This document shows positions 1-42,969 of a stretch of DNA of 54,861 nt, in pieces. The notes under the pieces are model-generated. The model searched no databases. It was not told the origin of the DNA and saw nothing but the letters and a program-made list of their open reading frames with translations. The stretch is from a virus: the IMG/VR virus record IMGVR_UViG_3300037963_004246, positions 1 to 54,861 of that record, one strand, 5' to 3'. Each line of letters opens with the position of its first letter. Position 1 is the stretch's first letter. Both the position numbers and the translations under genes were made by a program.

Positions 1-3000
1 TGCATCATCAGATATGGCTGTGTGGCTACTCGGTATTGTGCTATTGCTTGTTCCCAATCCAGGTGTTAAATCTGAACCTGTGTTGTTAATGATAGTATAT
101 TGTTGTCCTATTTCTGCTGTTGCAGGTAGGGTGGGCGCACCACTACCTGTTACATACACATACGAGCCTGATTGTTCGTCAGTTAGTGTTGTTGTGGTTG
201 TTATGGCTACTACACTAATTTTGTTTGCTACTAATCCGTTAGCATTCCCCTTAAACCAAGTAACTCCACCATCACCGGAAGTTATCAATAATTGGTCGTC
301 ACCTGTGGGGTCAGAAACATCACCGCTACCAATTACGAGGTTGTTAGACCCTGTGGTAATGTTGTCGCCCGATTGTGTCCCGATGCAGATATTGTAGTCG
401 CCGCTACTAACCAAGTAAGCAGCCTGGTAGCCTATTCCTGTGTTGTAATCTGAACCATCATCTGGAGTATATAGAGCCTGTCTTCCAATACCTATGTTAT
501 AGTTAGCACTTCCATTGATTGCATACATAGCACTATCGCCAATACCGATATTGTAATCTCCCTCAAATGTCCCATCACCACCATAAGTCGGCATATCCCC
601 TATGAATACATTTTTCGTAGCACTCGCAGTTCCTCTTGCACCGGCCGCATAACCAATACAAACTGAGTTAGTGGACAAAGACCAAATGCCAGCCCAAAAC
701 CCAACTGCGGTTGAACCGAATCCTATATTTTTACCAGCAGAAGAGCCAATAGCGACAACCCTACTATCTGTGCTATTAGTCGTTCCGGCTTGTTTTCCGA
801 TAAACACACCATCTGTTGCTGTTGATACTGCCGTTGCAGCAGACCACCCCATAGCAGTGTTACTCGTTCCGCTCGATAATGCGTCTAATGCCCCTATTCC
901 TACACCTGTATTATACACTGCACTACTTAGTGTTCCGGTGGTTTGATGACCCAATAACAAACTGCCTGTAAAATCAGTCCCACCGGATTTACCATCTGTT
1001 AAATCATCTATGCCGCCCGCAACCCCACTTGGTCCTGTCGGACCGGTCGAACCACCTGGTCCGGTCGGTCCTGTTGGGCCGGTAGGTCCTGTGGGTCCGG
1101 TAGGACCGGTAGCACCATCTGAACCGTCAGCCCCGTCAGAACCAGCGGGTCCTGTTGGTCCTGGAGGTCCTGTTACTCCAATAGTGCCTTGAGAACCAGG
1201 AGGACCTGTTGGTCCTGTTGGTCCTGGAGGCCCTGCCCCACCATCAGACCCGTCTGAACCATCATTTCCAGGCGGTCCTGCTGAGCCGGTTGGACCAGGA
1301 GGGCCAGCTGGTCCCGTCGGCCCTGGAGGTCCTGCAGAACCATCTGAACCATCGCTACCATCAGAACCAGGAGGACCTGCAGGCCCTTGAGCACCAGAAG
1401 GTCCTGGAGGACCGGCAACTCCTACTGTCCCTTGAGAACCAGGAGGACCTGTGGGGCCAGGAGGTCCTGCTGAACCTGTTGAACCTGTATCTCCTTTGTC
1501 GCCCGTTCTTGCGAAGGTGACGAAAACATCTTCTCCATCACTAAATGGTGCTGATGCTGAAGAATCTACTGTGCTTATTGTAATATCGAAATACCCTGTT
1601 TCTTCTGTTATGGAAGATATAGTGTGTAATGTAAATTGTGAAGAATCAGATAAGTTACTGATTTTGATATGGCCCTTTATGGTTGAAGTCGAATCGTCAA
1701 TGGTGCGAAGGAAGGACTGAATATCTGTGCCGTCAAGGTCGCTATCATCAATATAAATACCGGTCGCAGAACTTTGTGTTGAGTTGTCTAACCTTATCTT
1801 GCCTGCTCCTGGGTCTGCCTTTGATGTTGTAGTGCTAAAGTCATACTTAAACGAAGCACCACCAAATACACCTTGAGGCCCTTGTGGCCCTGTCGGTCCA
1901 GGAGGTCCTGCTGAACCTGGAGGGCCTGTGGGTCCAGACCCTCCCGTTGAGCCTGGAGGACCAGAAGGTCCTGCTGGTCCGGCTGGTCCTGTCGGTCCAG
2001 GAGGTCCGGCACTACCATCTGAGCCGTCATCACCGGCTGGTCCGGTTGGCCCTGCTGGGCCTGGAGGTCCCGATGGACCTGTTGCACCATCACTACCAGG
2101 AGGCCCACTTGGGCCTGTTGGTCCTGCTGGCCCACTTGGTCCTGCTGGTCCGGTAGCACCTGCTGGAATACTAAATGCAAATACCTTAGCCGTGTCTGGA
2201 CCTGATGATGTGATACCAATTGGGCCTGTAGTAGCAGTTGGCGTTCCAAAACCTGCTGCAGCACCTGTGCTTCCTGTGGGGCCGGAAGGTCCGGCAGGAC
2301 CTGTTGCGCCTTGTGGTCCGTCTGGGCCTTCTGGTCCGGTTGGACCTGTGGGTCCAGATGAACCTGTTGGGCCTGCTGGTCCGGTAGGTCCGGTTGCACC
2401 AGATGGGATTGTGAATGCGAATACTTTTGCTGTATCAGGGCCGCTTGCTGTTACTCCGATAGGGCCGGTGCTTGCAGAAGGAGTGCCGAAACCTGCAGCA
2501 GTTCCGGTTGGGCCTGTTGGACCCGACGGACCTGAAGGTCCTGTTGGACCCGTAGGGCCAGCCACAGTTGAATCCGCTCCGGTTGGTCCGGTTGGACCCG
2601 TAGGGCCGGTTGGCCCAGATGGTCCGGTCGGTCCAGATGGTCCTGTTGGGCCTGTGTCTCCTTTATCACCTGTTCGAGCAAAAGTTATTGTTACATCTTC
2701 GCCATCAGAAAAGGGAGATGTAGCCGATGAATCAACGGCACTTACTGTAATATCGAAATAACCGCTATTTTCAGTTAGAGAAGAAATTGTGAATAATAAG
2801 AATTGAGAAGTATCTGTTAAATTTGTTATTTTTACATGACCCTTGATTGTCGAGGTTGAGTCATCAATTGTTCTCATGTATGATTGAATGTCTGTTCCGT
2901 CTAAATCAGAATCGTCAATGTAAATACCTGTTGCGGCATTTTGTGTGGAATTATCGAGCCTTAATTTCCCTGAGCCAGGGTCTGAATCTGTTGTAGTGGT

Positions 3001-4569
3001 GCTAAAATCATATTTGAAAGTAGCACCTCCGAAATTCCCTTGAGGTCCCGTAGGTCCTGTTGGACCAGACGGTCCAGACGGCCCCGTAGGTCCGGTAGGA
3101 CCTGTGCTACCCGTAGGTCCTGCAGGTCCCGTTGGGCCTGTTGCTCCTTGAGGAATTGAAAACGCAAACACTTTAGCGGTGTCCGGCCCACTACCTGTTA
3201 CTCCTATTGGTCCGGTAGTGGCGGTAGGGGTTCCGAATCCGGCTGCTGCACCCGTTGGGCCGGTCGGACCTGTTGCGCCTGTTGAACCTGTTGGCCCATC
3301 TGGACCATCCGGTCCTGTGGGGCCAGAAGGCCCTGTTGGTCCTGTGGGTCCTGAAGGTCCGGTCGGTCCTGCTGGACCAGGAGGTCCTGCAACACTTGAA
3401 TCTGCACCCGTAGGACCTGTCGGTCCTGTCGGGCCGGTGGGGCCTGTCGGGCCAGCCGGTCCTTGTAATCCTGTTGGTCCGGTAGGGCCTGTCGGCCCCG
3501 TTGGGCCAGCTGCACCCGTAGGACCTGTAGGGCCTGTTGCACCTCTATCTCCTGAAGTGGAAAAATTAACAACGAGTGGTAGGTTATTAGAAGGTAAAGA
3601 TGCTGATAAAGAATTTACAACATCAACCTCAACGTGGTCTGATTGGCTGGTTAAACCATCAACTCTAAACACCATAAGATTAGTGCCGTCTGCTTTGCAG
3701 ATAGTCAAATACCCCTTCTTACCTACATTGGTTGAGTCATCCCATGATTCAACCCAAGATTCTATCGTATTGCCGTCACTGTCTTCGTGTGAAAAATAAA
3801 CCTTTGTTACTGATGCGACGGTGGCGTTGTTGAACATAAGGTCGCCATCATCAAGATTTGAGCTCGGTGAAGATGTGCTCGTATTGAAGAGTAATTTCAT
3901 ACCACCAAGCCTACCGTCTGGACCTGTTCCTCCCGTAGGGCCTGTTGGACCTGAAGGCCCTGTAGGACCGGTTGGTCCTGGAGGTCCAGCAACAGAAGAT
4001 GCGGGTCCTGTCGGACCTGTAGGTCCTGCCGGTCCTGTGGGACCAGCGGGACCTGTCGGACCAGCGGGACCGGTTGGGCCTGTGGGTCCTGTTGAGCCTG
4101 TCGGACCGCTTGCACTGTTTTGATATGCAACCCAAGTATCTGTTCCGTATTTTCTAACATAGGATTTCTCGAATTGACCTAAAGATTTAGCGAATGCGCT
4201 ACCATTTACTGTTACTCCGGTATCACCTTGAATAGTTACTGTGCCTGACCCCATATTCAAAATACGTAATTCAGTCAAATCAACCGGATAAGGAACGCTT
4301 GAATTGGTGGGGATTGTAATTGTTACTCCACTACCAGAACTTACGAGGACTAATTGCCCCTCGTGAGTGCGTGTTAGAGTAGTGTTTGAGGTTATGGTTG
4401 TTGAATTGGGGCGTATATCCATAGAACGCCCACCGGCAGTTGACCCGTCACCTATGAAAGTCATACCGCTTGTAGTATCTCTGAAAATTTGAGCACCATC
4501 TGGAGTAACAGATATTCTATTTGCTTGAGTATCCGTCAGCAAATTCTTAGCATCTGTTAGTGTCGGCAT
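1..4569 (-). CDS. Giant collagen-like tail fibre / adhesin, C-terminus beyond window
   Basis: An open frame runs from an ATG at 4569 (Shine-Dalgarno-like GAGGAATTA just upstream) to the left edge without a stop, so at least 1,523 residues. The first 150 residues are non-repetitive (starts [11 protein letters not shown]). After that come long Gly-Pro-Thr / Gly-Pro-Ala triplet runs, typical of viral collagen-like stalks, separated by globular linkers. One linker type, with the core VFAFSIP then GATGP, occurs three times (about 2160-2260, 2400-2500, 3150-3250). Near the left end (about 400-600) are repeats of the type YNIGIG, as in YadA-type trimeric head beta-rolls. I infer a trimeric virion fibre or receptor-binding protein. 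The opposite strand and other frames also stay open here because the sequence is triplet-repetitive; those are shadows. It is the last gene of the virion operon visible here. Confidence 0.85.
1485..3062. repeat. Duplicated fibre module (two copies of about 410 bp)
   Basis: Within the fibre gene, 1485-1895 and 2651-3062 encode the same globular module: about 135 residues ending in a Gly-rich segment and flanked on both sides by Gly-Pro-Thr repeats. The copies are diverged at the DNA level but align end to end, 1,166 bp apart. This points to duplication by recombination between collagen-like runs and gives the fibre a modular stalk-knob-stalk-knob build. Confidence 0.75.
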
Positions 4570-4595
4570 GGTAATTCCTCATTTCTCATTCTTAC

Positions 4596-5810
4596 TTAAA
4601 GGGTCAGGTCTCCAAAAACAATAGACGTAACATTTCCTGTAACAGTTAAAGGCCCAATGTCTATCGTGGATTTAGAGGCCACTTCAGTACTGATTGTTCC
4701 CCACTTAGGGATACCATCAACAACCTTTAGTGCAGTATCATTATTACCTATTTTTGGTGGAAGTGTTGTGTAATTTTTTGGTGCGGAATGATATATTCCC
4801 CCACCTATCTCATAGAAGTCCCAGGAACCGGCAACAGTTGGCTTAGAATTGACCTTCAAGATATTGCCGTTGGTATTGTTTTGCGGTCTAAGAGAAGATT
4901 TGACTTCAAGGGAGTTACAAACAAGCGTTAGTCCATCAGTAATATATACATAGTTATTGGTGGATTGGTCGCCACCGATAATGAGGTTATGCCAATTTGC
5001 TGTAAAGTTAGAAGAACCATCACCAAAGTTAGTGTCGCCTGTAACAGGTAATCTTCGACCGCCGGAAGTAGCACGTATCTCCCAAGTGGTTTCTCCAGCA
5101 TCAAATGATGCGTAGTTAATATCAAAGTCAGTCCTGACTATGTATTTCCAATTTCTGTTGTTAAGTGGGTCATTTAGTGCTAATGTAGCACCATCCATGA
5201 CTAAAGAATCTATATCAACTGCTTCATAGTTAGGGTCTACTGTGGCTGTTGCAGCAACATACCCAACATTTAGTCGGGGAGTGCCTGTTCCAGTAACCCC
5301 TATGAATAAATCTGGGTATATACCCTTTTCTAATTTGAATTGGCTATCTGCGTGTGCTTCTGCTTCAGTAGATTCAATATACCAATTAGGCCCACCAGGA
5401 TTTGTATATTCAGCCAATTCCCCGAATGTTATCAATACGGGGTTTGAACTGCTGGTAACGAATTTGAAATTTTGATTAACCATATTCAATTTGCAGTTAA
5501 ATTTGAACACTCCCGAAAATGTGACTGTGGTAGTGTTTATTTCTAATGTTCTTGCTGATTCTGTGGTTGCGTTGTAAAAACCGTAATCAACACCAGGAAC
5601 AGCATTCTCTGTTGCTGGTAATTCGCAAATTATAGAACCTATGCTTGTGATAGTCCAGACACAGTCGCTGGTTGAATTACTATCGAAGTATGCTGTGTCC
5701 CCCGCACCTGGAACTGATGCACCTGTTGAACCACCGGAAGTGGTGCTCCAATTGGCTGTGCTGCTGCTTGCGTTAGAAGCACTCCCACCAATCCAATATC
5801 TGTTAGCCAT
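4596..5810 (-). CDS. Tail fibre / baseplate-type protein (ANRYW N-terminus)
   Basis: 404 residues. It opens with MANRYWIGGSASNAS, then a Ser/Thr/Asn-rich stretch and SVPGAGDTAYFD. This N-terminal signature (ANRYW-GG ... NWS ... ASVP ... D-FD) is common in tail fibre or appendage proteins of tailed phages. The rest is rich in beta-strand-like and Asn/Thr/Gly segments, without transmembrane segments. It lies directly upstream of the collagen-like fibre and 2 bp from the previous gene. Start ATG 5810 follows GAAGTGAT. Role as a fibre or fibre-attachment protein is inferred from the signature and position. Confidence 0.7.
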   Translation of the reverse strand: MANRYWIGGSASNASSSTANWSTTSGGSTGASVPGAGDTAYFDSNSTSDCVWTITSIGSIICELPATENAVPGVDYGFYNATTESARTLEINTTTVTFSGVFKFNCKLNMVNQNFKFVTSSSNPVLITFGELAEYTNPGGPNWYIESTEAEAHADSQFKLEKGIYPDLFIGVTGTGTPRLNVGYVAATATVDPNYEAVDIDSLVMDGATLALNDPLNNRNWKYIVRTDFDINYASFDAGETTWEIRATSGGRRLPVTGDTNFGDGSSNFTANWHNLIIGGDQSTNNYVYITDGLTLVCNSLEVKSSLRPQNNTNGNILKVNSKPTVAGSWDFYEIGGGIYHSAPKNYTTLPPKIGNNDTALKVVDGIPKWGTISTEVASKSTIDIGPLTVTGNVTSIVFGDLTL

Positions 5811-5811
5811 A

Positions 5812-6201
5812 TCACTTCAGCCTCGTAGCAGTTTTACCTTCGGCATAAGCAGTTGAACCTGCTTCCGCTATGTTTGCTACAAGGTCGTCTGCTCTTTTCT
5901 TGAAAACATCTAATTGCGCTCGCAATCTAATGTCGTTCTCTCTTTGCTGTTCTGTGGGGACATACGTTGGGATTGTGTCTAATAAAACCGTTAGGCAATC
6001 AACGGCGACAAGAGCCTTCACCGCAGCATCTTTCTCTGCAGTAGATACTACGTATGCGCTCGAGTCGTTTAAGTAAAGACTGCCTCTGGCTATTTTGTTA
6101 ATTTGTGCTTCTCTAACGCTTATGTATTCGGTTATCGTTCCCGAATTCAAGCCTTTAGGGAAGTTAAGCAAGTCACGGATATTTTGCTCAGAGACTGCCA
6201 T
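5812..6201 (-). CDS. Putative head-tail connector / virion protein
   Basis: 129 residues from ATG 6201 (MAVSEQNIRDLL), preferred over the upstream ATG at 6219 because GGAGGGTT sits at Shine-Dalgarno distance. It overlaps the preceding gene by 14 bp. Predicted mostly helical and hydrophilic, ending in KTATRLK. Position between capsid and fibre genes is where head-completion or adaptor proteins lie in HK97-like gene orders; I recognise no family motif, so the role is inferred from context. Confidence 0.55.
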   Translation of the reverse strand: MAVSEQNIRDLLNFPKGLNSGTITEYISVREAQINKIARGSLYLNDSSAYVVSTAEKDAAVKALVAVDCLTVLLDTIPTYVPTEQQRENDIRLRAQLDVFKKRADDLVANIAEAGSTAYAEGKTATRLK

Positions 6202-6568
6202 TCCAACCCTCCGGCACATCGAGCATGATTGCTTTACCTGGAACCTCGCTCATTCGCCGGACAACTGTTAGTTTCTTAGTCAAAATTAACTCTTCAGCCC
6301 ATTTTGAGTTTGGAAGCCAATAAAGTTTAGAAGGCATGATTCCTGCCTGCTTCAGTTTGGGGTGTTGTCTATACATTCTAACAACCCAACCTGGGCCTGG
6401 TATCCAATGCTTTTTTCTGTGTTGCATAGCCTCAAGGGAAGCGTCTTCTGGAACGGGGATTCCCATAGCGTTCAATTCAGAAGCGAGAGAAGCCTTAGTG
6501 GACTTCTTAGGTGCTGCCTTTTTCTTAGGTGCTGCCTTTTTCTTACTCGCTTTCTTCTTTTCCGCCAT
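6188..6568 (-). CDS. Lys/Ala-rich N-terminal small virion protein
   Basis: 126 residues. The first 25 are a low-complexity basic tail of KKKAAPKK-type repeats, likely to bind DNA or acidic partners. The remainder is a compact domain with an aromatic-rich middle (HWIPGPGWVVRMYRQHPKL). The gene overlaps both neighbours (26 bp with the upstream gene, 14 bp with the downstream one), so expression is probably coupled. Function unknown; co-location with the capsid module suggests a minor virion component. Confidence 0.6.
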   Translation of the reverse strand: MAEKKKASKKKAAPKKKAAPKKSTKASLASELNAMGIPVPEDASLEAMQHRKKHWIPGPGWVVRMYRQHPKLKQAGIMPSKLYWLPNSKWAEELILTKKLTVVRRMSEVPGKAIMLDVPEGWNGSL

Positions 6569-6758
6569 CTTTCTTCACCGTCTTTTTCGGAGTTGGCTTC
6601 TTATCAACCTTTGCTTCAGGTTGTGCTGCAACCCACTTAGCCATAGCAGACTTAGTGGGCTGCAGTCCCTCGGGCCAGATAGAAGGGATTGGTTTTCCCG
6701 CTGCCTTACAAAGAGCAGCGAGAAGAACCATTCTTCGTGCTTGGCCTATTCGAGCCAT
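6543..6758 (-). CDS. Small basic protein downstream of capsid gene
   Basis: 71 residues. The N-terminal half (MARIGQARRMVLLAALCKAAG) is helical. The C-terminal half is a Lys/Pro tail (KPTPKKTVKKDGG). The end overlaps the start of the next Lys-rich gene; the two basic tails face one another in the gene pair. No recognised family; probably a minor capsid or head-completion protein by position. Confidence 0.55.
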   Translation of the reverse strand: MARIGQARRMVLLAALCKAAGKPIPSIWPEGLQPTKSAMAKWVAAQPEAKVDKKPTPKKTVKKDGGKEESE

Positions 6759-6770
6759 CTATAATCACCT

Positions 6771-7694
6771 TCAGGAGCGGACTCCGGTCAGCTTAACAAT
6801 CCTGTTGTTTGTGCCGGATGACGCTCCATCTTGGTGTTCGTGGATTACAGTTCCCATGTAGCCTGTTAGTAGCCAATCGAAGCCGACACCAGGTAGTCTG
6901 GTTAATTCGGTTTCTTGGAAGCCTGCACCATTGTATGTAAAGAATTCAGCGGTTTCCGAGCCAGGAATTAGAAGTAGTGCATCGTTTCCGAGTGCGCTGC
7001 TTGAGCCGTAATCTCTGGTGTAAAGAATTGATACGTTAGCGATTCTTCGTAGGTGTTCGCCGAGGGACTCCACGACGTTTCCGTATAGTGTTGTGTTTAG
7101 AATTGCACTTCTCTTATCGGCAGGTAGCACAAGGGATACTCCCTCGTCACCCGATACACGAGCGTTAGCAAAGAGTAAGTCCATCATTCCCAAAATGTCG
7201 CCTTCTTCGTCAGCGGAACCGCTACCGAATACAGCAGTAGCAGCAGCCGATTGACCAGCGCCACCGTGTAGTTTTGTTAGAATGTGGTTATCAATGAGGT
7301 CTGCGCGAGCGCGAACAATTCCCAACTGCTGTCGGTCAATGTTTTCAAAGGACTCACCGCGTAGGCGAACAGTATCGAGGAATACAACTCGACCCTGACC
7401 CTTCTCTAACTTGACGGTGTAGTTAGCAGTTCCAACCTTTGTTGGGTCAACGACTGCAGCGTCATCTATTGGGTAGGTAAATGTTCCATTCACGCCAGTA
7501 TACCACTTGAATTCAAGCCAGGGGACTGAGCGAGTGCCTACAAGGTCTGTTGCGATAGCAATTGTGTTAGATTGCAACTGAATGAAATCTCTTAGTGTTT
7601 GCTCAAGGACTGCATCTGGTGGTGCAACAGGTCCTGTGGAAGCAAACCATGTGTTGTCGTTCTTAGTCAAAATTTGGTCTAATGTGTCGTTCAT
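6771..7694 (-). CDS. Major capsid protein, HK97-fold type (putative)
   Basis: 307 residues from ATG 7694, which follows GGAGATGATT at Shine-Dalgarno distance; an in-frame TTG 15 nt upstream is less likely. Order protease-scaffold, small decoration-like protein, this gene, connector-like genes matches HK97-type head modules. Length is usual for such capsid proteins. Visible traits are an N-terminal helical arm (to about residue 45), alternating beta segments, and a C-terminal P-domain-like stretch ending in IVKLTGVRS. No catalytic motif. The call rests on gene order, length and character, not on a diagnostic motif. Confidence 0.75.
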   Translation of the reverse strand: MNDTLDQILTKNDNTWFASTGPVAPPDAVLEQTLRDFIQLQSNTIAIATDLVGTRSVPWLEFKWYTGVNGTFTYPIDDAAVVDPTKVGTANYTVKLEKGQGRVVFLDTVRLRGESFENIDRQQLGIVRARADLIDNHILTKLHGGAGQSAAATAVFGSGSADEEGDILGMMDLLFANARVSGDEGVSLVLPADKRSAILNTTLYGNVVESLGEHLRRIANVSILYTRDYGSSSALGNDALLLIPGSETAEFFTYNGAGFQETELTRLPGVGFDWLLTGYMGTVIHEHQDGASSGTNNRIVKLTGVRS

Positions 7695-7709
7695 CTTAAT
7701 CATCTCCAA

Positions 7710-8114
7710 TCAGCAAGAAACTGGTATTAGGTCTCCTGTAGCAATAGCGGTTTCGTCGCCAAAGTAATATCCTACGAATACAGCGGAGTTGGATGAATCG
7801 TCATCCACATATCCGTCTGTGTCGGAGGTTTGTGATACGTAAATAGGTAGTCCGAATTTAGGGGAAGCAATAGCCATGCTTCTTAGGTAGCAGATACCGT
7901 CAAGAGGCAGAATTGATACTGTTCCTGTTCCAGCCGCTTCAAGGGCTTGGTCAGCATCTCTGCTCGATTCTTGCATTGTGTAACCAATTGGTGTATCGGT
8001 TACTGAAGCGGTGGATTGGATACCGTTTGCATGGTATTTTACCAATAAGCCGCTTTCTGCAAAAGTGTTCTGTATATCAACCACATGGGCTGGGTCATTT
8101 CCTGAGTATAGCAT
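7710..8114 (-). CDS. Putative capsid decoration protein
   Basis: 134 residues, beta-rich, between the protease-scaffold gene and the capsid gene. Small head-decoration or cement proteins usually occupy this slot. Sequence features: Ala/Gly/Thr-rich, an internal GTGTVSILPLDG, and an end LIPVSC. A strong Shine-Dalgarno (GGAGGATGATT) precedes ATG 8114. Assignment by context. Confidence 0.55.
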   Translation of the reverse strand: MLYSGNDPAHVVDIQNTFAESGLLVKYHANGIQSTASVTDTPIGYTMQESSRDADQALEAAGTGTVSILPLDGICYLRSMAIASPKFGLPIYVSQTSDTDGYVDDDSSNSAVFVGYYFGDETAIATGDLIPVSC

Positions 8115-8116
8115 TT

Positions 8117-9841
8117 CTAAATCATCCTCCTATCTTTGAGTTCTGCGAAGGTCAAAGCCCTCATGTCGTCATCCTTCATGTGACTGTTCCATTGGTCAGC
8201 CCATAGGTTATATGCGACTTCATAAATCGCTGTTGGGGTTTCAACCTTTTCGCCGTTGAGGTAGTTTGCCACTACCGCACCTGAATCTGCTTGAGGGGCT
8301 TCTGTTGCTTCAACATCAGTCGATGCTTCAACAGGCTTCATCTCGACCGGAGTTGGCTCAGGGTGAGCGGCCTCCCAAGATGCAATTAGTCCTTCAAGAG
8401 TTTCAGTAGTCAGTTCTTCGTGTCCCTTCATACCGAGTTCGGTTGCCTTCTCCACAAGGGAAATTCGCTCTTCTTCAGCTGCTGCTGCTTCACGAGCATG
8501 GAACTCATCAACTGTTGCATTCGCAAGGATGAGTTGCGCCTTTAGGTCTTCCATTTCAGCATGAAGCTCACTGTTATCGCTTGCTTCAATCTCTATGTCG
8601 TCAGTCATAATAGTCACCGTTTGACGACCTGACGAAGTGCTCGTGCTACCTATAAACCCTGCGGTCTGCTTCACCCTTTCGACTTCTGTTATACGAGCCT
8701 TTGAGTATGCTGGCTTATGAACGATTGCTAAATGGTCTATATTGAATTGCGTTCCAAAAACCATGATATTCTTACCGTCTTCGCTGCTCTTAACGACTTC
8801 AGGCTTACCTGTTCCACCGATACTCACACCATAGCCTTTTCTCAGCCAAAGGCCGGATTCTAATGCTTCAAACAGTTCTGTTCTCACAACATCGGCTTCA
8901 AATCTAACCAACCAACCGTCTTCGTCTTCATCCATATATGCAGATGTGACGTATCCGACAATCGCTTCTTCTACTCCACCATCCATATTTCGTGAAAAAC
9001 CAGACCCTACTTCATTTGTCTTAGGGTGTAGTAATGTGAGGTCAGTCCCAACGAAGTTATCAACAACATTTTCAGCGCCCGCTCGAGTGAGCGACCATCT
9101 GTTCTTATTTACTCCTTCGTGGAATGCTATACCTTTGATTCTAATAACTGTTTTTCCGGTTGTTGCTTCAAGTATTGATTCCGCTTCTTCGATTTCTAAA
9201 TCGAGTTCGACTGATACTTTTACACACATACCGTCTTTCTTTTCATAACCTTCTTTACAACCATAAGAAGCCTTTTTCTTTTCGTCGTCGTCATAATAAC
9301 CTTCGACTTCTTCTTTCTTGAAAGTGTGTCCTTCGTGGGCTTTCATACACTGTTCTTTGGTATAACCCGCCTTTTGGCAACGAGACATATATTCTTCGTG
9401 AGTTTCATTATTTTTAGGTGTAGGTTCAGCCGCTTCTGCTACTTCCTTTTTACAGTTTTGTTCATCCATACATTCACCTTCTTTACAGTCGCAGGGGGAT
9501 TCTGAACCTTCGACTTTTGCTCCTGACCTCCATTGTCTGCAAGACCAATAACGGGCTTTCCATTTTGGGCCAGGGCTACTGCAGTTATGTCTGCTTCTGA
9601 AAGATTTTCTCCTTGCGGGGTCATCTCTTTTGATTTCCATGTTAGGGTCGCCGAATCTTACAAGAACGACATTACCCTTTTCATTTTTAGTATAGACACC
9701 AAATTTCTTAGGACCTCCAGATGTTCTGAATGGTTTGTTAAGAGTTACTTTACGACCTTTGTATTCCGCCGCTTCAACATCTTCTTCATCCCATTCTTCA
9801 TAGGCGACTACTTCTCCGCCGCAACCACAACCGCAACCCAT
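8117..9841 (-). CDS. Prohead protease-scaffold fusion with Cys-rich N-terminal domain
   Basis: 574 residues. Residues 1-130 are Cys-rich (begins MGCGCGCGG) and carry RFGDPNMEIKRDDPARRKSF followed by a PGPKWKARYWSC segment, a motif I know from marine phage protease-like proteins. Residues about 230-400 look like an S78-type prohead protease, including IDHLAIVHKPAY, which resembles the HLA-VPNPAY motif around the active site. Residues about 430-520 are acidic, Ala/Glu-rich and coiled-coil-like, as expected of an internal scaffold. It would assemble with and mature the capsid. Start ATG 9841 immediately follows the upstream stop, with GGAGG 13 nt before it. Confidence 0.8.
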   Translation of the reverse strand: MGCGCGCGGEVVAYEEWDEEDVEAAEYKGRKVTLNKPFRTSGGPKKFGVYTKNEKGNVVLVRFGDPNMEIKRDDPARRKSFRSRHNCSSPGPKWKARYWSCRQWRSGAKVEGSESPCDCKEGECMDEQNCKKEVAEAAEPTPKNNETHEEYMSRCQKAGYTKEQCMKAHEGHTFKKEEVEGYYDDDEKKKASYGCKEGYEKKDGMCVKVSVELDLEIEEAESILEATTGKTVIRIKGIAFHEGVNKNRWSLTRAGAENVVDNFVGTDLTLLHPKTNEVGSGFSRNMDGGVEEAIVGYVTSAYMDEDEDGWLVRFEADVVRTELFEALESGLWLRKGYGVSIGGTGKPEVVKSSEDGKNIMVFGTQFNIDHLAIVHKPAYSKARITEVERVKQTAGFIGSTSTSSGRQTVTIMTDDIEIEASDNSELHAEMEDLKAQLILANATVDEFHAREAAAAEEERISLVEKATELGMKGHEELTTETLEGLIASWEAAHPEPTPVEMKPVEASTDVEATEAPQADSGAVVANYLNGEKVETPTAIYEVAYNLWADQWNSHMKDDDMRALTFAELKDRRMI

Positions 9842-15282: not shown

Positions 15283-15405
15283 ATGTTTGAAAGTAGCGTA
15301 AGGTGTAAAGAGTGTGGCTGGTATGCTAAAAGAATGCTACGAGAGAAAGTGCTAAAAGGAGAATGCCCCCACTGTGGAGCATACAAAGGGTTGAAGCCAT
15401 GCTAA
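15283..15405 (+). CDS. 40-residue zinc-ribbon mini-protein before TerL
   Basis: ATG 15283 directly follows the phosphoesterase stop. Two pairs, CKEC and CPHC, spaced about 22 residues apart, form a zinc ribbon. The stop overlaps the TerL start by 7 nt (ATGCTAA). Position between phosphoesterase and TerL suggests a packaging accessory or transcription factor, but this is only positional. Confidence 0.6.
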   Translation: MFESSVRCKECGWYAKRMLREKVLKGECPHCGAYKGLKPC

Positions 15406-16877
15406 CCGGATTTAATTTAGAGCGCTCAAAGAGAGACATTCGTTTTTTCTATGAGTGGTGCGGCTATACGTGGGGCGACCACATAGGCGAATGGATGGAT
15501 ATGTTCGGCGATAGAAAAGGTGCTGAAGTGCATCGTGTTTGTATTATTGCACCTCGTGACCACTCAAAATCAACAACTCTTAGAATGAAGATACTTCACC
15601 ACGTTTTATTCGATAAGTGGCGTGATAAGCCCTTTACAGTTTGGTTATTTTCAGCATCTAAGGATTTGGCTGCAAGAAGGCTCGAAGAAATGAAAGAGGA
15701 CTTGAAGCGACATGAAGAATTGCGTAAATTCTTGCATCCCCGTCTTGGGACTAAATTAGAATTGAGGCTTACAAATGGTGCTGTAGTTAGAGCGACGGGT
15801 GTTGGTGCTGCTATTCGTGGTGAGCACCCCGCTGCAATTATTCTTGATGACGTATTAGACGACATGGGCGATATGAACCACGAGGGAATCAGACATTGGT
15901 TTAGAAAGAAAGTGACCCCGATGCTATCCCCCCAAACCAGCATTTATTGTGTTGGAACACCAATGAGCCTAAATGACCTATACCACACCGAAATGTTGGA
16001 AAATAAAACATGGAAATCGGGAACATGGTCTGCTTTGCCTAATTGGGAAGAGCATAGGTCAGACCCATCTGTGGAATTAAAATGTTTGTGGCCTGAATAC
16101 AGGCCCTTGAATTTCTTGCTTGAACAAAAAGAGGCTATGGGTGAATTGGCTTTTGTGCAGGAATATTTGTGTAAGGTGGTTGATGATGAATCTGCTGTCT
16201 ATAAACGTGAGCACTTGCGTAAAAATATGGATATGGAAAAAACAATTGCTTGGGATTCACAAGAAGGGGGGAAGTATGTTATTGGTTTTGACCCAGCACA
16301 AGGTTTGGGTCGTGACTATTCGGTTATGGTCGTTCTTAGGCAGGATGAACAAGGCCAAATACACTTCGTCAATATGTGGCGACGTAATGACTTCAACCCT
16401 GATAAACAGTGTCAGGTAATAGGTGAATGGGTAAATAAATTCGGCAAGTGTCCTCTCGCTGCTGAAGACGTAGGTTTTCAAAGACTTTATCAAAGTCTGT
16501 TAGAAAGAATGGGCTATGTAATAGAATACAGACCGAGCAAGGTAGGGAACAAAGGGCTAAAACAAGGATTGTTGAATAGGGTTCGTGTTTGGTTCGAGCA
16601 GGGAAAGGTTCATTGGCCTTATGGGGATATTGAAACCCGTAATGTGGTAAATCAATTGCTCGATGAGTTCGATGCTCATGTTTGGAAGGCTGGCGATATT
16701 CACGATGTAGGAAAACACAACGATACTGTTATGGCTTTTGCTCACGCCATAGACCAATTCGATTCATTGAAGGGAGAAACAGTAACCTTCGCAAGTAGTA
16801 TAGATAAAGGAGAATGGATGGGTGGAAGACAAGCGCAACCCAGCCGAAACAACTCCCGCTACCCAGGATTATTTTAG
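15399..16877 (+). CDS. Terminase large subunit (TerL)
   Basis: 492 residues from ATG 15399, chosen for its overlap with the upstream stop. ATPase: Walker A variant APRDHSKST (residues 51-59), Walker B AAIILDD (145-151), coupling CVGTP. RNase H-like nuclease: IGFDPAQGLGRDYS, LAAEDVGF and KHNDTVMAFAHA supply the metal-binding acidic residues. It pumps and cuts concatemeric DNA at the portal. Its end is followed by about 500 nt without a gene. Confidence 0.93.
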   Translation: MLTGFNLERSKRDIRFFYEWCGYTWGDHIGEWMDMFGDRKGAEVHRVCIIAPRDHSKSTTLRMKILHHVLFDKWRDKPFTVWLFSASKDLAARRLEEMKEDLKRHEELRKFLHPRLGTKLELRLTNGAVVRATGVGAAIRGEHPAAIILDDVLDDMGDMNHEGIRHWFRKKVTPMLSPQTSIYCVGTPMSLNDLYHTEMLENKTWKSGTWSALPNWEEHRSDPSVELKCLWPEYRPLNFLLEQKEAMGELAFVQEYLCKVVDDESAVYKREHLRKNMDMEKTIAWDSQEGGKYVIGFDPAQGLGRDYSVMVVLRQDEQGQIHFVNMWRRNDFNPDKQCQVIGEWVNKFGKCPLAAEDVGFQRLYQSLLERMGYVIEYRPSKVGNKGLKQGLLNRVRVWFEQGKVHWPYGDIETRNVVNQLLDEFDAHVWKAGDIHDVGKHNDTVMAFAHAIDQFDSLKGETVTFASSIDKGEWMGGRQAQPSRNNSRYPGLF

Positions 16878-17394
16878 TGTGTCGAGCAGCACTGTGGGAT
16901 AAGCCGAAGGGGGGAAGGTAATATGCTGCCCGACTATTACAGCGTGTGCTGCAGACTACTTAAGCATTTTCTTATATAGTAGCCAAGAAAAAATTTTCTC
17001 AAAAATTCCTGCAGGCTGTGGGCGTTGTAAGATACGTCGGTTTTTCGATTTTTGGCGACTTACTATATAAGGTTGACGCCACCAACCTTAATAAGGGGCA
17101 TCCCCATTTTCACTTTGCCCCGCTACGGACGGGGAAGTGGTAGGCGTGTAGTATAACTATACGTTGTATTGGGTGAAAACCTTCGTGAAGGGTTAGTATT
17201 CCATGTATGGGTTGAATCGGCTTCGCAATGAATCGCTAACATTTCATTCCGAAGATAAAATGCGGGTCGGTGTTTGTGGTCGCGAATGAAATAAACGTCA
17301 ATACTTCGGCGGGATTTCCCAACAAAAAATCCACCGGAAGGGTCTTCGGATGCGACAAAAAAATAGACAAAACCACAAACGAATAAAAGGTAAA
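16878..17394. other. Non-coding region at the left border of the word-free segment
   Basis: No credible gene. It contains a cluster of CTGCAG-like words (16,949-17,017), a TATA-like inverted pair (16,971 and 17,071), A/T tracts (AAGAAAAAATTTTCTC), and after 17,018 the start of the CAG/GAG-free segment with small hairpins such as CCCCG-N7-CGGGG near 17,119-17,135 and CCTTC-GT-GAAGG near 17,180. Candidate origin, boundary or ncRNA locus. Confidence 0.6.
16971..17071. repeat. Inverted repeat of facing TATA elements
   Basis: CTTATATAGTA at 16971-16981 is mirrored by its reverse complement ending at 17071. The similarity extends inward (GCCAAGAAAAA against GTCGCCAAAAAT). The two boxes point at each other across about 80 bp with no start codon at the usual 30-nt distance. 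The last CTG before the word-free segment (17,015) lies between them. Confidence 0.6.
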
Positions 17395-17811
17395 ATGGAA
17401 GTGGAAATCATGGTTGACTATACCAAACAATTGATTGAAACCCCAAAACATGAACCAAAGGCTAAGGGTAGTAAAAGCCGTCAAAGCGCGCAAAGAACCC
17501 CTTATTCGACGCAAAAAATGTTCTACAACAATTTGCGACGAACATACGTGGCCTATCGGGACAATGTGGAAGATTGCGAAAAGGCGAAAGCCGAAGCCGC
17601 AAAGGTGAAGGGTGCGAAAGCCGAAATCACCTTGTCGAAAGACATGAAATCCCACATGACGGCCGCCCTTCAAGGTGCGCTAATGTCCCTAAATGGTGCA
17701 TACACCCGCCCCGATAAGGCCGGTGTTCGAATCCAAAACCTTAGCAATAAGCAATTGGACAAGACGATTCGGGAAGTGAATGACCTTTGCACCCGAATTG
17801 AAGCACTATGA
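17395..17811 (+). CDS. Lys-rich helical protein of the word-free segment
   Basis: 138 residues from ATG 17395 (AAAGGTAAA upstream); ATG 17410 is a possible alternative. Residues 10-40 are basic and disordered-looking, residues 45-85 are a long charged helix (AKAEAAKVKGAKAEI), and the end forms another helix (KQLDKTIREVNDL). Every Glu is GAA, every Gln CAA, and no Leu is CTG or CTC, unlike neighbouring genes. No family recognised. The pattern suits a nucleic-acid-binding protein, which is inference. Confidence 0.65.
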   Translation: MEVEIMVDYTKQLIETPKHEPKAKGSKSRQSAQRTPYSTQKMFYNNLRRTYVAYRDNVEDCEKAKAEAAKVKGAKAEITLSKDMKSHMTAALQGALMSLNGAYTRPDKAGVRIQNLSNKQLDKTIREVNDLCTRIEAL

Positions 17812-18129
17812 TGGTTCGACCATTGGGATGACTTTCAAATGCACCCCACGATAGATTAGACACGGTGGGGGTGTGGGTAGTGGTGGATGGGACACCACAT
17901 GGGGACACCCACACGATAAAGGCGAAGGAACGGAATACGTAAGGGTCGGGGGGGTATATCCCCCCCGATACCGATAAACCACCAACAAGATGGCGTGAAG
18001 GGTTGATGCCCTAAACACCGGATTGGGGTTGCCCCTACGGGGCATTTGTGCTACCATAGCGAATAGGGCCAATGAACGGTTAGAATACCAAACAAGCCAA
18101 ACACAACAAGCGTAGCGACCCAACCGGAA
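17812..18129 (+). other. Non-coding stretch with strong G/C hairpins
   Basis: No gene recognised. Contains a perfect 8-bp stem with a five-base loop (C then seven G, TATAT, seven C then G; 17,947-17,967), a smaller TGCCCC-TAC-GGGGCA hairpin near 18,030-18,045, and G/C-rich strings such as GGTGGGGGTGTGGGTAGTGG. It also lacks all CAG, CTG, GAG and CTC words. Could be a terminator, an RNA element or origin-like structure. Confidence 0.5.
17947..17967. terminator. G7/C7 hairpin
   Basis: Eight-base-pair stem of C+G7 against C7+G, loop TATAT. No T-tract follows, so a terminator role is uncertain; it may instead be a structural element in RNA or single-stranded DNA. Confidence 0.4.
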
Positions 18130-18402
18130 ATGTTTGCCGGAAGCGGATATAGCAATGACGATATAGACAACAATGACGACACCAAACCGAACCACCACTT
18201 CATGCGGCTTAATTGGCCGTGTGTAAATTGCGGAACACAAGTCAAGGACACCGAAGGGGATTACTTCGGAAGGCTTGGCTTCCTACCGGAAGGCGCATAC
18301 GATGAAATGTATGAACACTACTTTAACGGTAGGGTGTGGTGTGTAGGGTGCATGGCTAAAAGCGGACTATTCAAGAACCATAACGGGGGTGATAAACAAT
18401 GA
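18130..18402 (+). CDS. Zinc-ribbon protein of the word-free segment
   Basis: 90 residues from ATG 18130; ATG 18202 is an alternative because no clear Shine-Dalgarno precedes either. Residues 30-35 contain CVNC and residues 71-75 CVGC, making a likely zinc ribbon around an aromatic centre (DEMYEHYFNGRVWC). The N-terminal 25 residues are Asp/Asn-rich. Its stop overlaps the next start as ATGA. Codons avoid CAG, GAG, CTG and CTC. Confidence 0.6.
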   Translation: MFAGSGYSNDDIDNNDDTKPNHHFMRLNWPCVNCGTQVKDTEGDYFGRLGFLPEGAYDEMYEHYFNGRVWCVGCMAKSGLFKNHNGGDKQ

Positions 18403-18527
18403 TTAGGAACAAGTGTAGCAAGTGTGGGGGATGGGATTCATCCGTCCCCCACAAGTGGCGGGTGATAAACGGCCAATACATCAAATCCATAGGCGTGTGC
18501 CGACAATGCGAAAAGGGGGTGAATTGA
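18399..18527 (+). CDS. 42-residue zinc-ribbon protein
   Basis: ATG 18399 overlaps the previous stop (ATGA) and is preceded by GGGGGTGAT, an A-to-G variant of the canonical GGAGGTGAT that would otherwise contain GAG. Cys pairs CSKC and CRQC define a zinc ribbon. Role unknown, probably DNA/RNA or protein binding. Confidence 0.65.
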   Translation: MIRNKCSKCGGWDSSVPHKWRVINGQYIKSIGVCRQCEKGVN

Positions 18528-18646
18528 TAACCAAGTGTAGGAATGATGTGTGCAACCGACACGGCACTAATACCGACAAGAATGGTAATATGTGGTGTGA
18601 CGATTGCGTAATGCTAATAGCATTCGGTGTAATCGAATTCCATTGA
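18524..18646 (+). CDS. 40-residue zinc-binding protein, TTG start
   Basis: TTG 18524 overlaps the previous stop and has GGGGGTGA just upstream; an in-frame ATG at 18506 lacks such a signal. Protein has CRNDVC and CDDC and a hydrophobic C-terminus (VMLIAFGVIEF). Last gene of the word-free segment; a hairpin and T-run follow. Confidence 0.55.
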   Translation: MITKCRNDVCNRHGTNTDKNGNMWCDDCVMLIAFGVIEFH

Positions 18647-18681
18647 TTTCCAAACAATGGGGTTAGGTTCGGACTACGTAA

Positions 18682-18741
18682 GGGGGGTTGGGGGGTCGAA
18701 AGACCGCCCTTCCCCCCGCAAATTTTTTATTTCTTTTTTTT
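18682..18741 (+). terminator. Long G/C hairpin with GAAA loop and T-tract
   Basis: Two G runs (18682-18697) pair with GACCGCCC and CCCCCC (18702-18717) around a GAAA tetraloop, giving about 13 pairs with a small internal loop. ATTTTTTATTTC and TTTTTTTT follow (18722-18741). Looks like a transcription terminator or stable RNA 3' end, placed exactly at the right border of the word-free segment. Confidence 0.65.
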
Positions 18742-18746
18742 GAGCA

Positions 18747-18845
18747 CTGAGCCTGCGCAGCCTGAGGCTGACAGCAGAAGCTGTCTGAGAAAAAACTGTG
18801 CAGAAAAACTGTGCAGAAACGCTGACCCAGAAAAACTGACCTAAA
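18747..18845. repeat. CTG/A-tract array A
   Basis: Starts with dense CTG/CAG words (18,747-18,780), then CTG at 18785, 18796, 18809, 18822 and 18836, each followed by a run of A. About 20 CTG/CAG/GAG/CTC words fall in 108 bp, directly beside a segment with none. Lies in the convergent gap between the plus genes ending at 18646 and the minus gene ending at 18851. Confidence 0.7.
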
Positions 18846-20027: not shown

Positions 20028-20137
20028 TTGAATAATCAGGGATATTCGGTCAGATTTACGTAACCCCCCTATTGGATTGCAGGCTGGTAGGCGGGGGATA
20101 AATTCATACCCTGAAATACAACTCGTATTAAGGTAAC

Positions 20138-20204
20138 CTCTCAAAAGAGACTGAGTAAAAAGAGCCTGAGAAAAGAGAATCTGAAAAAAGAGACTGTAAA
20201 ATCA
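20138..20204. repeat. CTG/A-tract array B
   Basis: CTC at 20138, then CTG at 20151, 20166, 20181 and 20194 (steps 13, 15, 15, 13), each followed within a few bases by an A-run. Placed in a convergent intergenic gap (20,028-20,201) with nothing else recognisable. Confidence 0.65.
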
Positions 20205-20375
20205 GGTGCTTATTGAATCAGCCACATATCGAGATTTACATTCATGAGAGCAAAAATACAGCGTTAAGAAAATATTCTCATCAACAAAACTGATATCTGT
20301 GCTGACCAATTCAGCCCTGCACATAAAGCAGTATATCGGGCGAGTCTTCAAGTTAAACTGTTCAATCAGATTCAT
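20202..20375 (-). CDS. 57-residue zinc-finger protein
   Basis: ATG 20375 follows the upstream stop as TGATTATG. Contains CFMC and CSHEC (residues 16-19 and 42-46), a treble-clef-like or ribbon zinc site in a compact domain. Last gene of the unit starting at 20996. Confidence 0.6.
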   Translation of the reverse strand: MNLIEQFNLKTRPIYCFMCRAELVSTDISFVDENIFLTLYFCSHECKSRYVADSIST

Positions 20376-20377
20376 AA

Positions 20378-20668
20378 TCAGCCCTCCAATTCCAGGTTGT
20401 CTTCCCAGACTTTAGCACAGCAGGCTAAGAATAACAGCTTGTTTTCGGGAAACTCACCATCCAGCATACCTTCAAGCAGCATCATAAGAACAGCGGTTGT
20501 TTCGTTATCCTGTTCATTATCAGTTACATATCCTTGAGGGGGTCGCCACAGGTTTAACATAGGAGTTACCCAATCGAGAGGCTCTTTGGAGCCAGCCAAG
20601 ATAGTCCTGGACTTTTCGAGCGCTTCGTAATTCCAGTCATTCGGTGAGACTTCTCTATACGCGGGCAT
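20378..20668 (-). CDS. Small unknown protein
   Basis: 96 residues from ATG 20668 (MPAYREVSPNDWNYEALEK), which follows the upstream stop by two bases (TGATTATG). Acidic and helical, with a C-terminal LLFLACCAKVWEDNLELEG. No motif recognised. Expressed in a four-gene unit of tiny proteins. Confidence 0.6.
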   Translation of the reverse strand: MPAYREVSPNDWNYEALEKSRTILAGSKEPLDWVTPMLNLWRPPQGYVTDNEQDNETTAVLMMLLEGMLDGEFPENKLLFLACCAKVWEDNLELEG

Positions 20669-20670
20669 AA

Positions 20671-20871
20671 TCAGAGCCCCCCTTCCCAATCTCGCTTCAA
20701 ACAGTCGTTGCATTGAGTATTCCAATACGCAGCGGCGTTACCGCAGAATTCAAAGGAGTCGCAAGGTATTGAGTTACAAAGGCAGAGAGAAGTCCCAGAG
20801 GCCGGATTGCAGCACCCACACCAGATTGTGTGTGAGCACTTGTCGCAGATTTTTTGTTCACAGTCGGACAT
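20671..20871 (-). CDS. Cys-rich 66-residue protein
   Basis: ATG 20871 overlaps the upstream stop (TGATG). Eleven cysteines, including CDKC, CGCC, CLC and CNDC, enough for two zinc sites. No homology claimed. Likely a zinc-binding adaptor or regulator. Confidence 0.6.
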   Translation of the reverse strand: MSDCEQKICDKCSHTIWCGCCNPASGTSLCLCNSIPCDSFEFCGNAAAYWNTQCNDCLKRDWEGGL

Positions 20872-20996
20872 CAGCATCCCCCGTTGAGTTTCCAAGTGAG
20901 GCATCGGGCCGAGCAAAATCGGCCAGACACATCAATCAGATTAGTGCAGTCAGGGTGTCGGCATCGGGGGCGGGCTACGGGTGCAGCTTTTTCCAT
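20871..20996 (-). CDS. 41-residue zinc-finger protein, promoter-proximal
   Basis: ATG 20996 lies exactly 30 nt from the first base of a TATA box, so leaderless. Cys at CRHPDC and CSARC; ends KLNGGC. First gene of the 20996-20202 unit. Confidence 0.6.
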   Translation of the reverse strand: MEKAAPVARPRCRHPDCTNLIDVSGRFCSARCLTWKLNGGC

Positions 20997-21016
20997 AGAC
21001 AGCCTATATTTCATCT

Positions 21017-21039
21017 ACTATATAAGGGTTGGTATCCTG
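21017..21039 (-). promoter_or_regulatory. Promoter (CAG box + TATA)
   Basis: CTTATATAGT (21026-21017), 30 nt before ATG 20996, with CAG 13 bp further upstream in CTTCAGGATACC. Confidence 0.65.
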
Positions 21040-21141
21040 AAGCCTGAGCCTGCAGTTTACCAAAGACTATAAACCCGCATCCCATCTTATAGGCGGGGTT
21101 CGTTTCCAACCAGCCTGGAGGCTGCAGCCTGAGGCTGGAGG

Positions 21142-21240
21142 CTGAAAAAAGCAGCCTGGTAGAAAAAACCTGCGTAAAAAATGCTGCAGAAAAACCTGGC
21201 AGGAGCATTCTGCCGAGAAAAAGCTCAAAAAGCAGCCTCG
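21142..21240. repeat. CTS/A-tract array C, 14-bp period
   Basis: CTG at 21142, 21156, 21170, 21184, 21196, 21210 and CTC at 21224 and 21237 (steps 14, 14, 14, 12, 14, 14, 13), most followed by four to six A. The free exchange of CTG with CTC shows that CT[C/G] is the conserved part. Iteron-like. Confidence 0.75.
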
Positions 21241-21372
21241 CCTGGCAGGTCGGCGTTTTAAACAGCAACCTGACTCAGCGGGCCGAGAAAATATCTCATA
21301 GACCAGCGCAGGGTAGGTATCCTCACAGTTATCCGCTGTTAGAGGACACACTCGCTGGTGCAGACCGTATCG

Positions 21373-23844: not shown

Positions 23845-23954
23845 TCTTCTTCCTCCCACTCTATATCGTTAATGCTCGCATCACCGTTTCTGACCTGTTG
23901 CCAGAACTCCTTACATATCGTTGCGGAGACTCGTATGAAGGAGTCTGGGTTCAT
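23841..23954 (-). CDS. 37-residue acidic peptide after ArdC
   Basis: ATG 23954 overlaps the ArdC stop (ATGA). Helical with an acidic end (DIEWEEEE). Small enough to be missed by callers; both ends are coupled by overlaps, which argues that it is real. Confidence 0.5.
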   Translation of the reverse strand: MNPDSFIRVSATICKEFWQQVRNGDASINDIEWEEEE

Positions 23955-24877
23955 TCTTCCTCCTCCGATTCAGCATATTCCATAACACGCCTTACAGCCT
24001 TTCCGGTGTCGCCTGATACTTTGACTATGTAATTCTTATCTCCTTTAAGAGCCTTAAGCCAAGAGCCTATGTATGCAGTTAAATTATTACGAGAAGTATA
24101 ATCAACACCAAATTGAGCACAAATAAGAGCAGCACCCATCTCAGCAATTAATTCTTCCTGTGCGTATTCCCTGTCGCCAAAGACTCCCATCTTACGCTTA
24201 AAGTGAGGACCTGTTGAATGTATTACTTCGTGAGCCCAAGTATTCATACGCTCTTCGACAGAAGTAAATCTTGAGTCTTTCGGCATATTTATTAAATTAC
24301 GAGATGGGGAATAGAACGCTGAATCGCCGCCCCTCTTGATTGTAATATCATTATCTTCACAGTATTTGTAAATGACTGATAACATAGCCTCTTCACTTTC
24401 AGTAATAGGAATATCAGGGTGGTCGTGTTCGAGTGGCGGCATCCCTGTTTGGTCGCGGTTAAATACAGCCCACCACTTCTTCCAGAATATACGCTTGAGC
24501 GGGTATGTTCCGTCTGCTTGCTTAGGCTGGTCTTTATCAGGAACCTCTTTAGTATTCCAAAAGAAAACCATAGAAGAAGTCTCGCCGGACTTCACTCCAT
24601 ACCATTCAGTATTTTCGCCAATCTGACCTAATGCTTTGTTGTGTTGAGCAGACGCATCCGACCAGTTTTTGTATGTCCCCCATTGGTTGGAGTCATAAGA
24701 TTGAGAAGCGGCAATCAGTGGTAATATGAATTGATTATTACCAGAATATTCGTTCCCAGAATCTATATTATAATGTCTTCCGAGTATAACCCAGCCTCGT
24801 TCCCAGGGTGGGCATCCAGATTCTAATTCAGTAATCAGATGTTGAGTTAATTCTTGTTCATAGTCCCGTTTCGGCAT
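23951..24877 (-). CDS. ardC: ArdC-type antirestriction protein (ssDNA-binding metalloprotease)
   Basis: 308 residues. N-terminal 1-140 match the ssDNA-binding ArdC domain: a PPWERGW segment, NIDSGNEYSGNN, and FFWN before KRIFWKKWWAVFN. C-terminal 170-300 is a zincin: HEVIH at 216-220 and EELIAEMGAA providing the third ligand. ArdC proteins of plasmids protect entering single-stranded DNA from host restriction. Start ATG 24877 lies 38 nt from TATA 24915. Presence in a virus with a strong word-avoidance segment suggests DNA-level conflict with the host. Confidence 0.85.
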   Translation of the reverse strand: MPKRDYEQELTQHLITELESGCPPWERGWVILGRHYNIDSGNEYSGNNQFILPLIAASQSYDSNQWGTYKNWSDASAQHNKALGQIGENTEWYGVKSGETSSMVFFWNTKEVPDKDQPKQADGTYPLKRIFWKKWWAVFNRDQTGMPPLEHDHPDIPITESEEAMLSVIYKYCEDNDITIKRGGDSAFYSPSRNLINMPKDSRFTSVEERMNTWAHEVIHSTGPHFKRKMGVFGDREYAQEELIAEMGAALICAQFGVDYTSRNNLTAYIGSWLKALKGDKNYIVKVSGDTGKAVRRVMEYAESEEEE

Positions 24878-39803: not shown

Positions 39804-39963
39804 TATGGATTGGGACTGTCCTGTTTGCGACGGCAACATGACTCACACGCATTCAGACCTTTATGACGTTCACTATGCCTGCGAAGTCTGCGGTTCAAGA
39901 TTAGTCGTTGATTCGGCTGTTTTGAATAGCCCGAAGGTTAATGAACCGCAACGTAGGAGTTGA
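39778..39963 (+). CDS. Zinc-ribbon protein
   Basis: 61 residues from ATG 39778 (GGAAGGTG upstream), overlapping the previous end by 26 nt. CPVC and CEVC ribbon ligands with a His-rich loop (MTHTHSDLYDVHY). Basic end. Confidence 0.55.
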   Translation: MVSQTSFGDMDWDCPVCDGNMTHTHSDLYDVHYACEVCGSRLVVDSAVLNSPKVNEPQRRS

Positions 39964-39967
39964 TATT

Positions 39968-42937: not shown

Positions 42938-42949
42938 TATTCATAAACC
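42928..42949 (+). promoter_or_regulatory. Promoter (CAG box + TATA) of DNA polymerase
   Basis: CAG at 42928, TTCATAAACC at 42940-42949, ATG 42970 at 30 nt. Confidence 0.7.
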
Positions 42950-42969
42950 GAAATAATCCCCCTATTATT

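Follow-up and report, generated by a model that had tools for sequence, protein, structure and literature searches.

A three-base word missing from both strands of a putative transcription unit in archaeal-type viruses, and its possible link to a DNA-modifying enzyme

The Mom enzyme of bacteriophage Mu modifies adenine within the short sequence SASNY, where S is C or G, and Mu is not known to carry an operon that is free of such words. Protection of early genes from restriction has been proposed for the first-step DNA of phage T5. A family of ABC ATPase-GNAT proteins, for which the phage pT24 provides the exemplar, has been predicted by Aravind's group to produce an uncharacterised acyl modification of a DNA base (PMC7824862). 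The genes listed for magroviruses, the viruses of Poseidoniales (Marine Group II archaea), include those for an ERCC4 nuclease, a DNA glycosylase, a portal protein and a terminase (PMC10160649).

Here we consider a virus from IMG/VR, the 54,861 nt of which are referred to throughout as the window. It encodes PolB, RFC and an ERCC4 nuclease, an archaeal-type replication module like that of the Magrovirales (gene list in PMC10160649), together with caudoviral structural genes; judged from gene content, it probably infects marine archaea. The palindromes GATC (1), GTAC (2) and CTAG (0) hardly occur anywhere in the window (1-54861), as though host restriction sites, or something comparable, were avoided throughout the genome. 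The minus strand at 1000-4400 codes for collagen-like Gly-Pro-rich repeats of high GC content and is rich in SAG (CAG or GAG) for coding reasons.

The segment of interest lies immediately downstream from the gene for the terminase large subunit (TerL) and is described below as a void.

15363-16877, plus strand: terminase large subunit, TerL (Pfam Terminase_6C, phrog_38), immediately upstream of the void
16990-17030, plus strand: left-border element, an A/T tract followed by CTGTGGGCGTT, from comparison of void left borders
17018-18741, no strand: segment free of SAG and its complement CTS (exact recount, shuffles, homologous voids in relatives)
17064-17070, plus strand: promoter resembling a TATA box, TATATAAG, 46 nt inside the void
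17350-17811, plus strand: void gene 1, a lysine-rich helical protein that matches no family and, depending on its uncertain start codon, has at most 153 aa
18130-18402, plus strand: void gene 2, 90 aa, resembling a zinc ribbon by its CxxC pairs, no Pfam match
18399-18527, plus strand: void gene 3, 42 aa with CxxC pairs, a stop-to-stop reading from sequence only
18524-18646, plus strand: void gene 4, about 40 aa with CxxxxC and CxxC, a stop-to-stop reading with an assumed TTG start
18723-18741, plus strand: T-run that closes the void on its right side and is probably an archaeal terminator
18742-18845, no strand: intergenic flank dense in SAG/CTS, adjoining the right edge of the void

An earlier note, made from the window sequence, had claimed that CAG, CTG, GAG and CTC are absent from 17018-18741, and an exact recount gave zero on either strand, with no stray words, against 837, 1055, 734 and 642 occurrences, respectively, in the whole window. 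Measured from start to start, the longest gap between SAG/CTS words is 1726 nt (17016 to 18742) and the runner-up in the window is 139 nt. The bordering GAG at 18742 had been placed correctly, whereas the CTG on the left, given as 17,015-17,017, actually occupies 17016-17018, one base away. Word frequencies from the rest of the window predict 106 occurrences within the void, in line with the roughly 100 estimated previously, while dinucleotide-preserving shuffles of the segment itself yield a lower value of 51. The lowest count in 2000 such shuffles was 33, and chance is thereby ruled out as the origin of the void. Synonymous recoding of the two main void genes with the virus's own codon usage would produce 22.6 and 10.5 words, and none is observed, glutamine being encoded only by CAA, glutamate only by GAA and leucine without CTG or CTC. 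AAG and TAG/CTA occur at normal frequencies inside the void, where the earlier note had called other words containing AG or CT plentiful. Neither composition nor reading frame nor strand accounts for the window void, which greatly exceeds what chance would produce.

Relatives were gathered by TerL searches of IMG/VR, except for contig G015 which was retrieved by a search with the candidate enzyme gene described below. Shortly after TerL, at the corresponding position, voids occur in 14 further TerL relatives; in those obtained by the TerL searches they begin about 80-420 nt after that gene. Their lengths are 1294 nt in L002, 1454 nt in L003, 1239 and 486 nt in L021 and 1762 nt in G015; L045, L047, L057, L063 and L129 likewise have a void after TerL, those of L054, L055 and L067 are cut by contig ends, and L048 and L171 carry voids for GAG only, of 940 and 1238 nt. 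Not all are independent, since L054, L055, L063 and L067 are near-identical. Recurrence of the voids in separate contigs from different samples rules out an assembly artefact. The earlier note had proposed checking whether the void is conserved in position while the underlying sequences diverge, and this is what was found: void DNA and proteins are mostly unrelated between lineages, and blastn and tblastx revealed no mutual similarity among the voids of the window, L002 and L003.

Most other TerL relatives have no void and, when the void-less ones were searched for other voided words, composition effects only were seen. A search of IMG/VR with the left-border DNA pattern produced mostly chance matches, unrelated viruses matched solely by DNA pattern showed no void, and a TerL search with L048 as query yielded no further relatives. 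In the void-less L031/G001, TerL is followed by a comparable GGCG...TATA element, and the words are present there in ordinary numbers. Downstream of the void in L048, at 5515-5841 and 6233-6544, there are two apparent paralogues of a void protein of class 3 (defined below), similar by eye and located outside the word-free segment.

Judged from sequence features, the voids appear mostly to match transcription units, starting shortly before a TATA box and ending with a T-run terminator, and the segment to which the earlier note had confined the avoidance is essentially one such unit. The left-border element recurs in similar form, as an A/T tract and a GGGCG-like sequence, at the left edge of most voids. 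A TATA box is found at the matching position in L002, G015, L045, L047, L063, L057 and L171, and the usual distance of a TATA-like box from a nearby left edge is 17-62 nt into the void; no match to the pattern used was found in the voids of L003, L021a, L129 and L048. In eight voids, including the homologous ones of L063 and L057, a T-run lies no more than about 40 nt from the right end, and the relatives' voids concerned are L002, L021b, L045, L063a, L063b, L057a and L057b. L063 has two voids, each with its own TATA box, genes and T-run, and forbidden words occur between them, while the G015 operon continues for about 270 nt past its void and some words reappear there. The proposal of selection at the level of DNA, or of its modification, has gained support from voids that lie at the same place over mostly unrelated content, from the purging of both strands together with the untranscribed promoter DNA, which argues for selection on DNA, and from the continued absence of forbidden words during rapid divergence (see below). 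Avoidance at the RNA level is ruled out because the purging affects both strands and extends to sequence ahead of the TATA box.

The genes within voids are short and evolve rapidly, encoding one helical protein and tiny proteins with cysteine pairs. The L063 protein, whose gene is at a position related to that of void gene 1, was modelled as a four-helix bundle. A void protein gave no match in a fold comparison with the PDB or in a peptide-pattern search, void DNA yielded no BLASTN match among phages, and Rfam found nothing convincing in the void segment. By analogy, void operons may resemble immediate-early genes for host takeover. Between and after the L063 void units, at 7502-7765, 8398-8530 and 9020-9080, a motif CTCGAAAAAA...AAAATCGTGCAGTA is repeated, and it may serve in regulation or termination. 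Intergenic stretches in which SAG/CTS words are crowded together with A-runs between them (e.g., CCTGAGGCTG...AAAAAA) were also seen, at 20100-21300 of the window, 5060-5330 of L003 and 9718-9850 of L002, and they are possibly selected for word density.

The word itself differs between lineages. Counts of the contexts of AG in each void divide the viruses into three classes, and the word CAG/GAG, as named in the earlier note, holds for the window but not for all relatives. In class 1 (window, L002, L003 and L021) CAG and GAG are absent, apart from two exceptions in L021, with AAG and TAG normal. For class 2 (L045, L047, L055, L057, L063 and L129) SAG and BAAG (CAAG, GAAG and TAAG) are missing or almost missing, with AAAG and TAG at normal levels. 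Class 3 voids (L048 and L171) lack GAG, have normal CAG, and contain no GACC, against about 14 expected, and 0-1 CGAC against 8-12 expected; the flank of L171 is rich in GAG. In all three sets the central base is an adenine with G or C after it, a pattern compatible, on sequence grounds, with an adenine modifier. Complete transcription units from which a three-base word is excluded on either strand, and in which that word switches between relatives, are not known to have been described, and searches of a limited body of literature revealed no precedent for motif-free early regions.

Purging has continued during divergence. The TerL DNA of L063 and L057, the diverged pair that is closest, is 93% identical, and their voids differ at 347 of 1318 aligned positions. 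Had these 347 substitutions been random, 61 forbidden words would be expected (minimum 36 in 2000 simulations), and only 3 are present; the word has thus been selected against or continuously removed during drift. Outside the void, CAG is over-represented in most class 1 viruses (1.08-1.16 versus 0.77-0.98 in void-less ones), the exception being L002 at 0.80.

A candidate for an enzyme that would read the word is encoded elsewhere in the window, between two replication genes, and an antirestriction gene considered later is listed with them.

23951-24877: ArdC-like antirestriction protein (ArdcN and zincin metallopeptidase)
39941-40795, plus strand: sliding-clamp-like protein, left neighbour of the candidate (phrog_947 E=1.9e-5, synteny)
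41012-42157, plus strand: fusion of ABC ATPase and GNAT domains, candidate DNA base acyltransferase (phrog_11143 E=1.4e-109, Pfam GNAT, fold search)
42889-45207, plus strand: family B DNA polymerase, right neighbour of the candidate (Pfam DNA_pol_B, synteny)

The protein, ABC-GNAT, belongs to the ABC ATPase-GNAT family: Walker A, an LSNGE signature, Walker B and a C-terminal GNAT domain with conserved motifs are present in the alignment, supported by phrog_11143, and it is 45% identical to the pT24 protein over nearly its full length. Fold searches returned ABC ATPases and GNATs as well as TmcA, which acetylates tRNA cytidine and joins an ATPase to a GNAT domain, and searches of Pfam, NCBIfam and PHROGs for membership of the Mom family gave general GNAT/ABC models or phrog_11143 and no match to Mom. 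In the Mu-like phage Komp_PAO1_1 the ABC-GNAT gene follows the tail-fibre genes, the place that mom occupies in Mu, and in Jace, LE3 and Pmp13 it is preceded by a ParB-like gene. A homologue with 51% identity was found in the archaeal MAG PL23a_bin.95 (L304, JANQNF010000016.1), with no void within 10 kb on either side.

In the few genomes that cover both loci, the gene and the void occur together. The gene is absent from its slot between clamp and PolB in the void-less G001-G004 and, among ORFs of at least 70 aa (tblastn E 1e-4), it is the sole window ORF that is common to G015 and missing from all of G001-G004. G015 was the only contig retrieved with the ABC-GNAT query that also carried this family's TerL, and its 1762-nt void was found afterwards, such that the void is a genuine prediction from the ABC-GNAT gene. 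The query detected no homologue in any of 36 other contigs of the TerL family and was positive in 5 of 15 elsewhere. Among contigs spanning TerL, clamp and PolB, a void is present in both of those with ABC-GNAT and in none of the seven without it (G001-G004, G030, G033 and G036); class 2 and class 3 contigs are too short to span these loci. A one-sided Fisher test gives 1/36, ignoring relatedness, and the link is statistically modest. According to the earlier note, normal counts in the homologous segment of a related virus would refute its claim; some relatives do show normal counts, but all those covering both loci are without the candidate gene.

No comparable void was detected in seven annotated phages with ABC-GNAT or in 13 of 14 further IMG/VR contigs carrying it. 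Since most unrelated phages with the enzyme have no void, the void is an added adaptation and the enzyme alone needs none. A possible second case is G069 (the contig of L282; L337), an unrelated GC-rich virus with genes for a ParB-like protein and ABC-GNAT. Beside both genes ACCR/YGGT is absent over 3283 nt (2712-5995) and strongly depleted over about 6 kb (about 1283-7719); GCCA and CCGG are also low in the same region and its composition differs, and it is therefore kept as a lead.

The occurrence of the enzyme gene in two genomes with voids, and its lack in seven without, suggests that the operon is built to escape the virus's own DNA modification. The void would be a transcription unit selected to be free of the target word of a virus-encoded modifier, most likely ABC-GNAT, so that an early operon is spared, a tentative reading to which we give nearly as much credence as doubt. 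The target word of the window enzyme would then be SAG, and the enzyme would acylate its adenine throughout the genome, as Mom does at its sites in Mu. Because the bulk of the modified bases would impede transcription by the unmodified machinery of the host, the virus would keep one small operon of fast-evolving genes unmodifiable from promoter to terminator. This operon, probably immediate-early, could then be expressed first from incoming DNA. Lineages with an enzyme preferring SAG and BAAG, or GAG and GACC/CGAC, would purge those words instead.

The sequence evidence for word-specific avoidance would fit equally well if another viral protein acting on DNA, such as a methyltransferase, a word-binding silencer or a nuclease, read the word and the operon were exempt, with ABC-GNAT present by coincidence. 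The ORF scan covered only part of the small window ORFs and, with some of these outside the Pfam scan, another such enzyme could be missed; no methyltransferase was recognised among the ORFs scanned, however, and the distribution of ABC-GNAT across G015 and G001-G004 is matched by no other window ORF, so we consider this explanation unlikely while giving it some weight. It is rather improbable that CTS is the template word at which the replication primase starts primers (pppAG...) and that the void marks an origin, or DNA that is single-stranded, where priming has to be prevented. CTG/CTC resembles DnaG-type start sites, and GGTC of class 3 those of the T7 primase, and clusters of SAG/CTS flank the voids, but the flanks lack strand asymmetry, the voids are shaped like transcription units, with words between the two of L063, and in the testable set ABC-GNAT, not a primase, tracks the void, no primase having been recognised among the ORFs scanned.

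Similarly improbable is that the host targets the word by restriction, nicking or a CRISPR-like mechanism, with the segment that enters or is expressed first avoiding the sites. Protection of early genes is an established idea, as mentioned for T5, and the window encodes the ArdC-like protein, but homologues of the latter also occur in the void-less G001, and the void covers promoter and terminator precisely. Moreover, the rest of the genome contains the word in abundance, in most class 1 viruses no less often than void-less relatives do, and a 3-bp nuclease target would be lethal there. A mutational process confined to the unit and removing the word, for example by A-to-G change from SAG to SGG, would make the void a by-product and could account for the enrichment of GGG/CCC (2.6x) and CGG/CCG (2.1x) in the window void; given the sharp unit edges, the different words per lineage, the rapid divergence without leakage and the words enriched in class 2 voids, which are not SGG-like overall, we judge this very improbable. 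Hardly credible is the acquisition of the void as horizontal DNA from a source lacking the word everywhere. Its composition is foreign and its content unrelated between relatives, but the left-border element and operon plan are shared while the words differ, L063 and L057 have diverged in place without regaining the word, and several donors would be needed, each free of a different word, so that this explanation is already strained.

More generally, some viruses may modify their DNA densely at a very short word and purge it from both strands of the immediate-early operon, promoter and terminator included, such that the word reports enzyme specificity, a generalisation that we regard as evenly poised. 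If escape from a virus-encoded modifier is the true model, voids would give an in silico readout of specificity for an uncharacterised family of DNA-modifying enzymes found in many phages, and viral DNA modification would carry a transcriptional cost around which genomes evolve. They would also mark the probable first-expressed genes of uncultured archaeal viruses.

With magroviruses the window shares the ERCC4 nuclease, DNA glycosylase, portal and terminase as well as archaeal-type PolB and RFC, and no void is mentioned for them in the passage considered (PMC10160649). Its ABC-GNAT protein has the same domain order as that of the Tenacibaculum phage pT24, but it is encoded by an archaeal-type virus, no ParB-like neighbour was recognised and it is linked to a word void. 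As in momylation by Mu Mom and other such systems, a GNAT-type enzyme and very short words containing a C/G-flanked adenine are involved, the words here being avoided words and candidate targets, whereas the window protein differs from Mom and joins its GNAT domain to an ABC ATPase. The avoided SAG, BAAG, GAG and GACC/CGAC are centred on adenine, similar to SASNY, although their link to the enzyme is conditional on the model. Like the first-step DNA (FST) of phage T5, the void would spare early genes from a DNA-acting enzyme by the absence of sites, provided that its genes are indeed early; unlike that DNA, it lacks a three-base word over 1.3-1.8 kb, promoter and terminator included, and the word switches between relatives.
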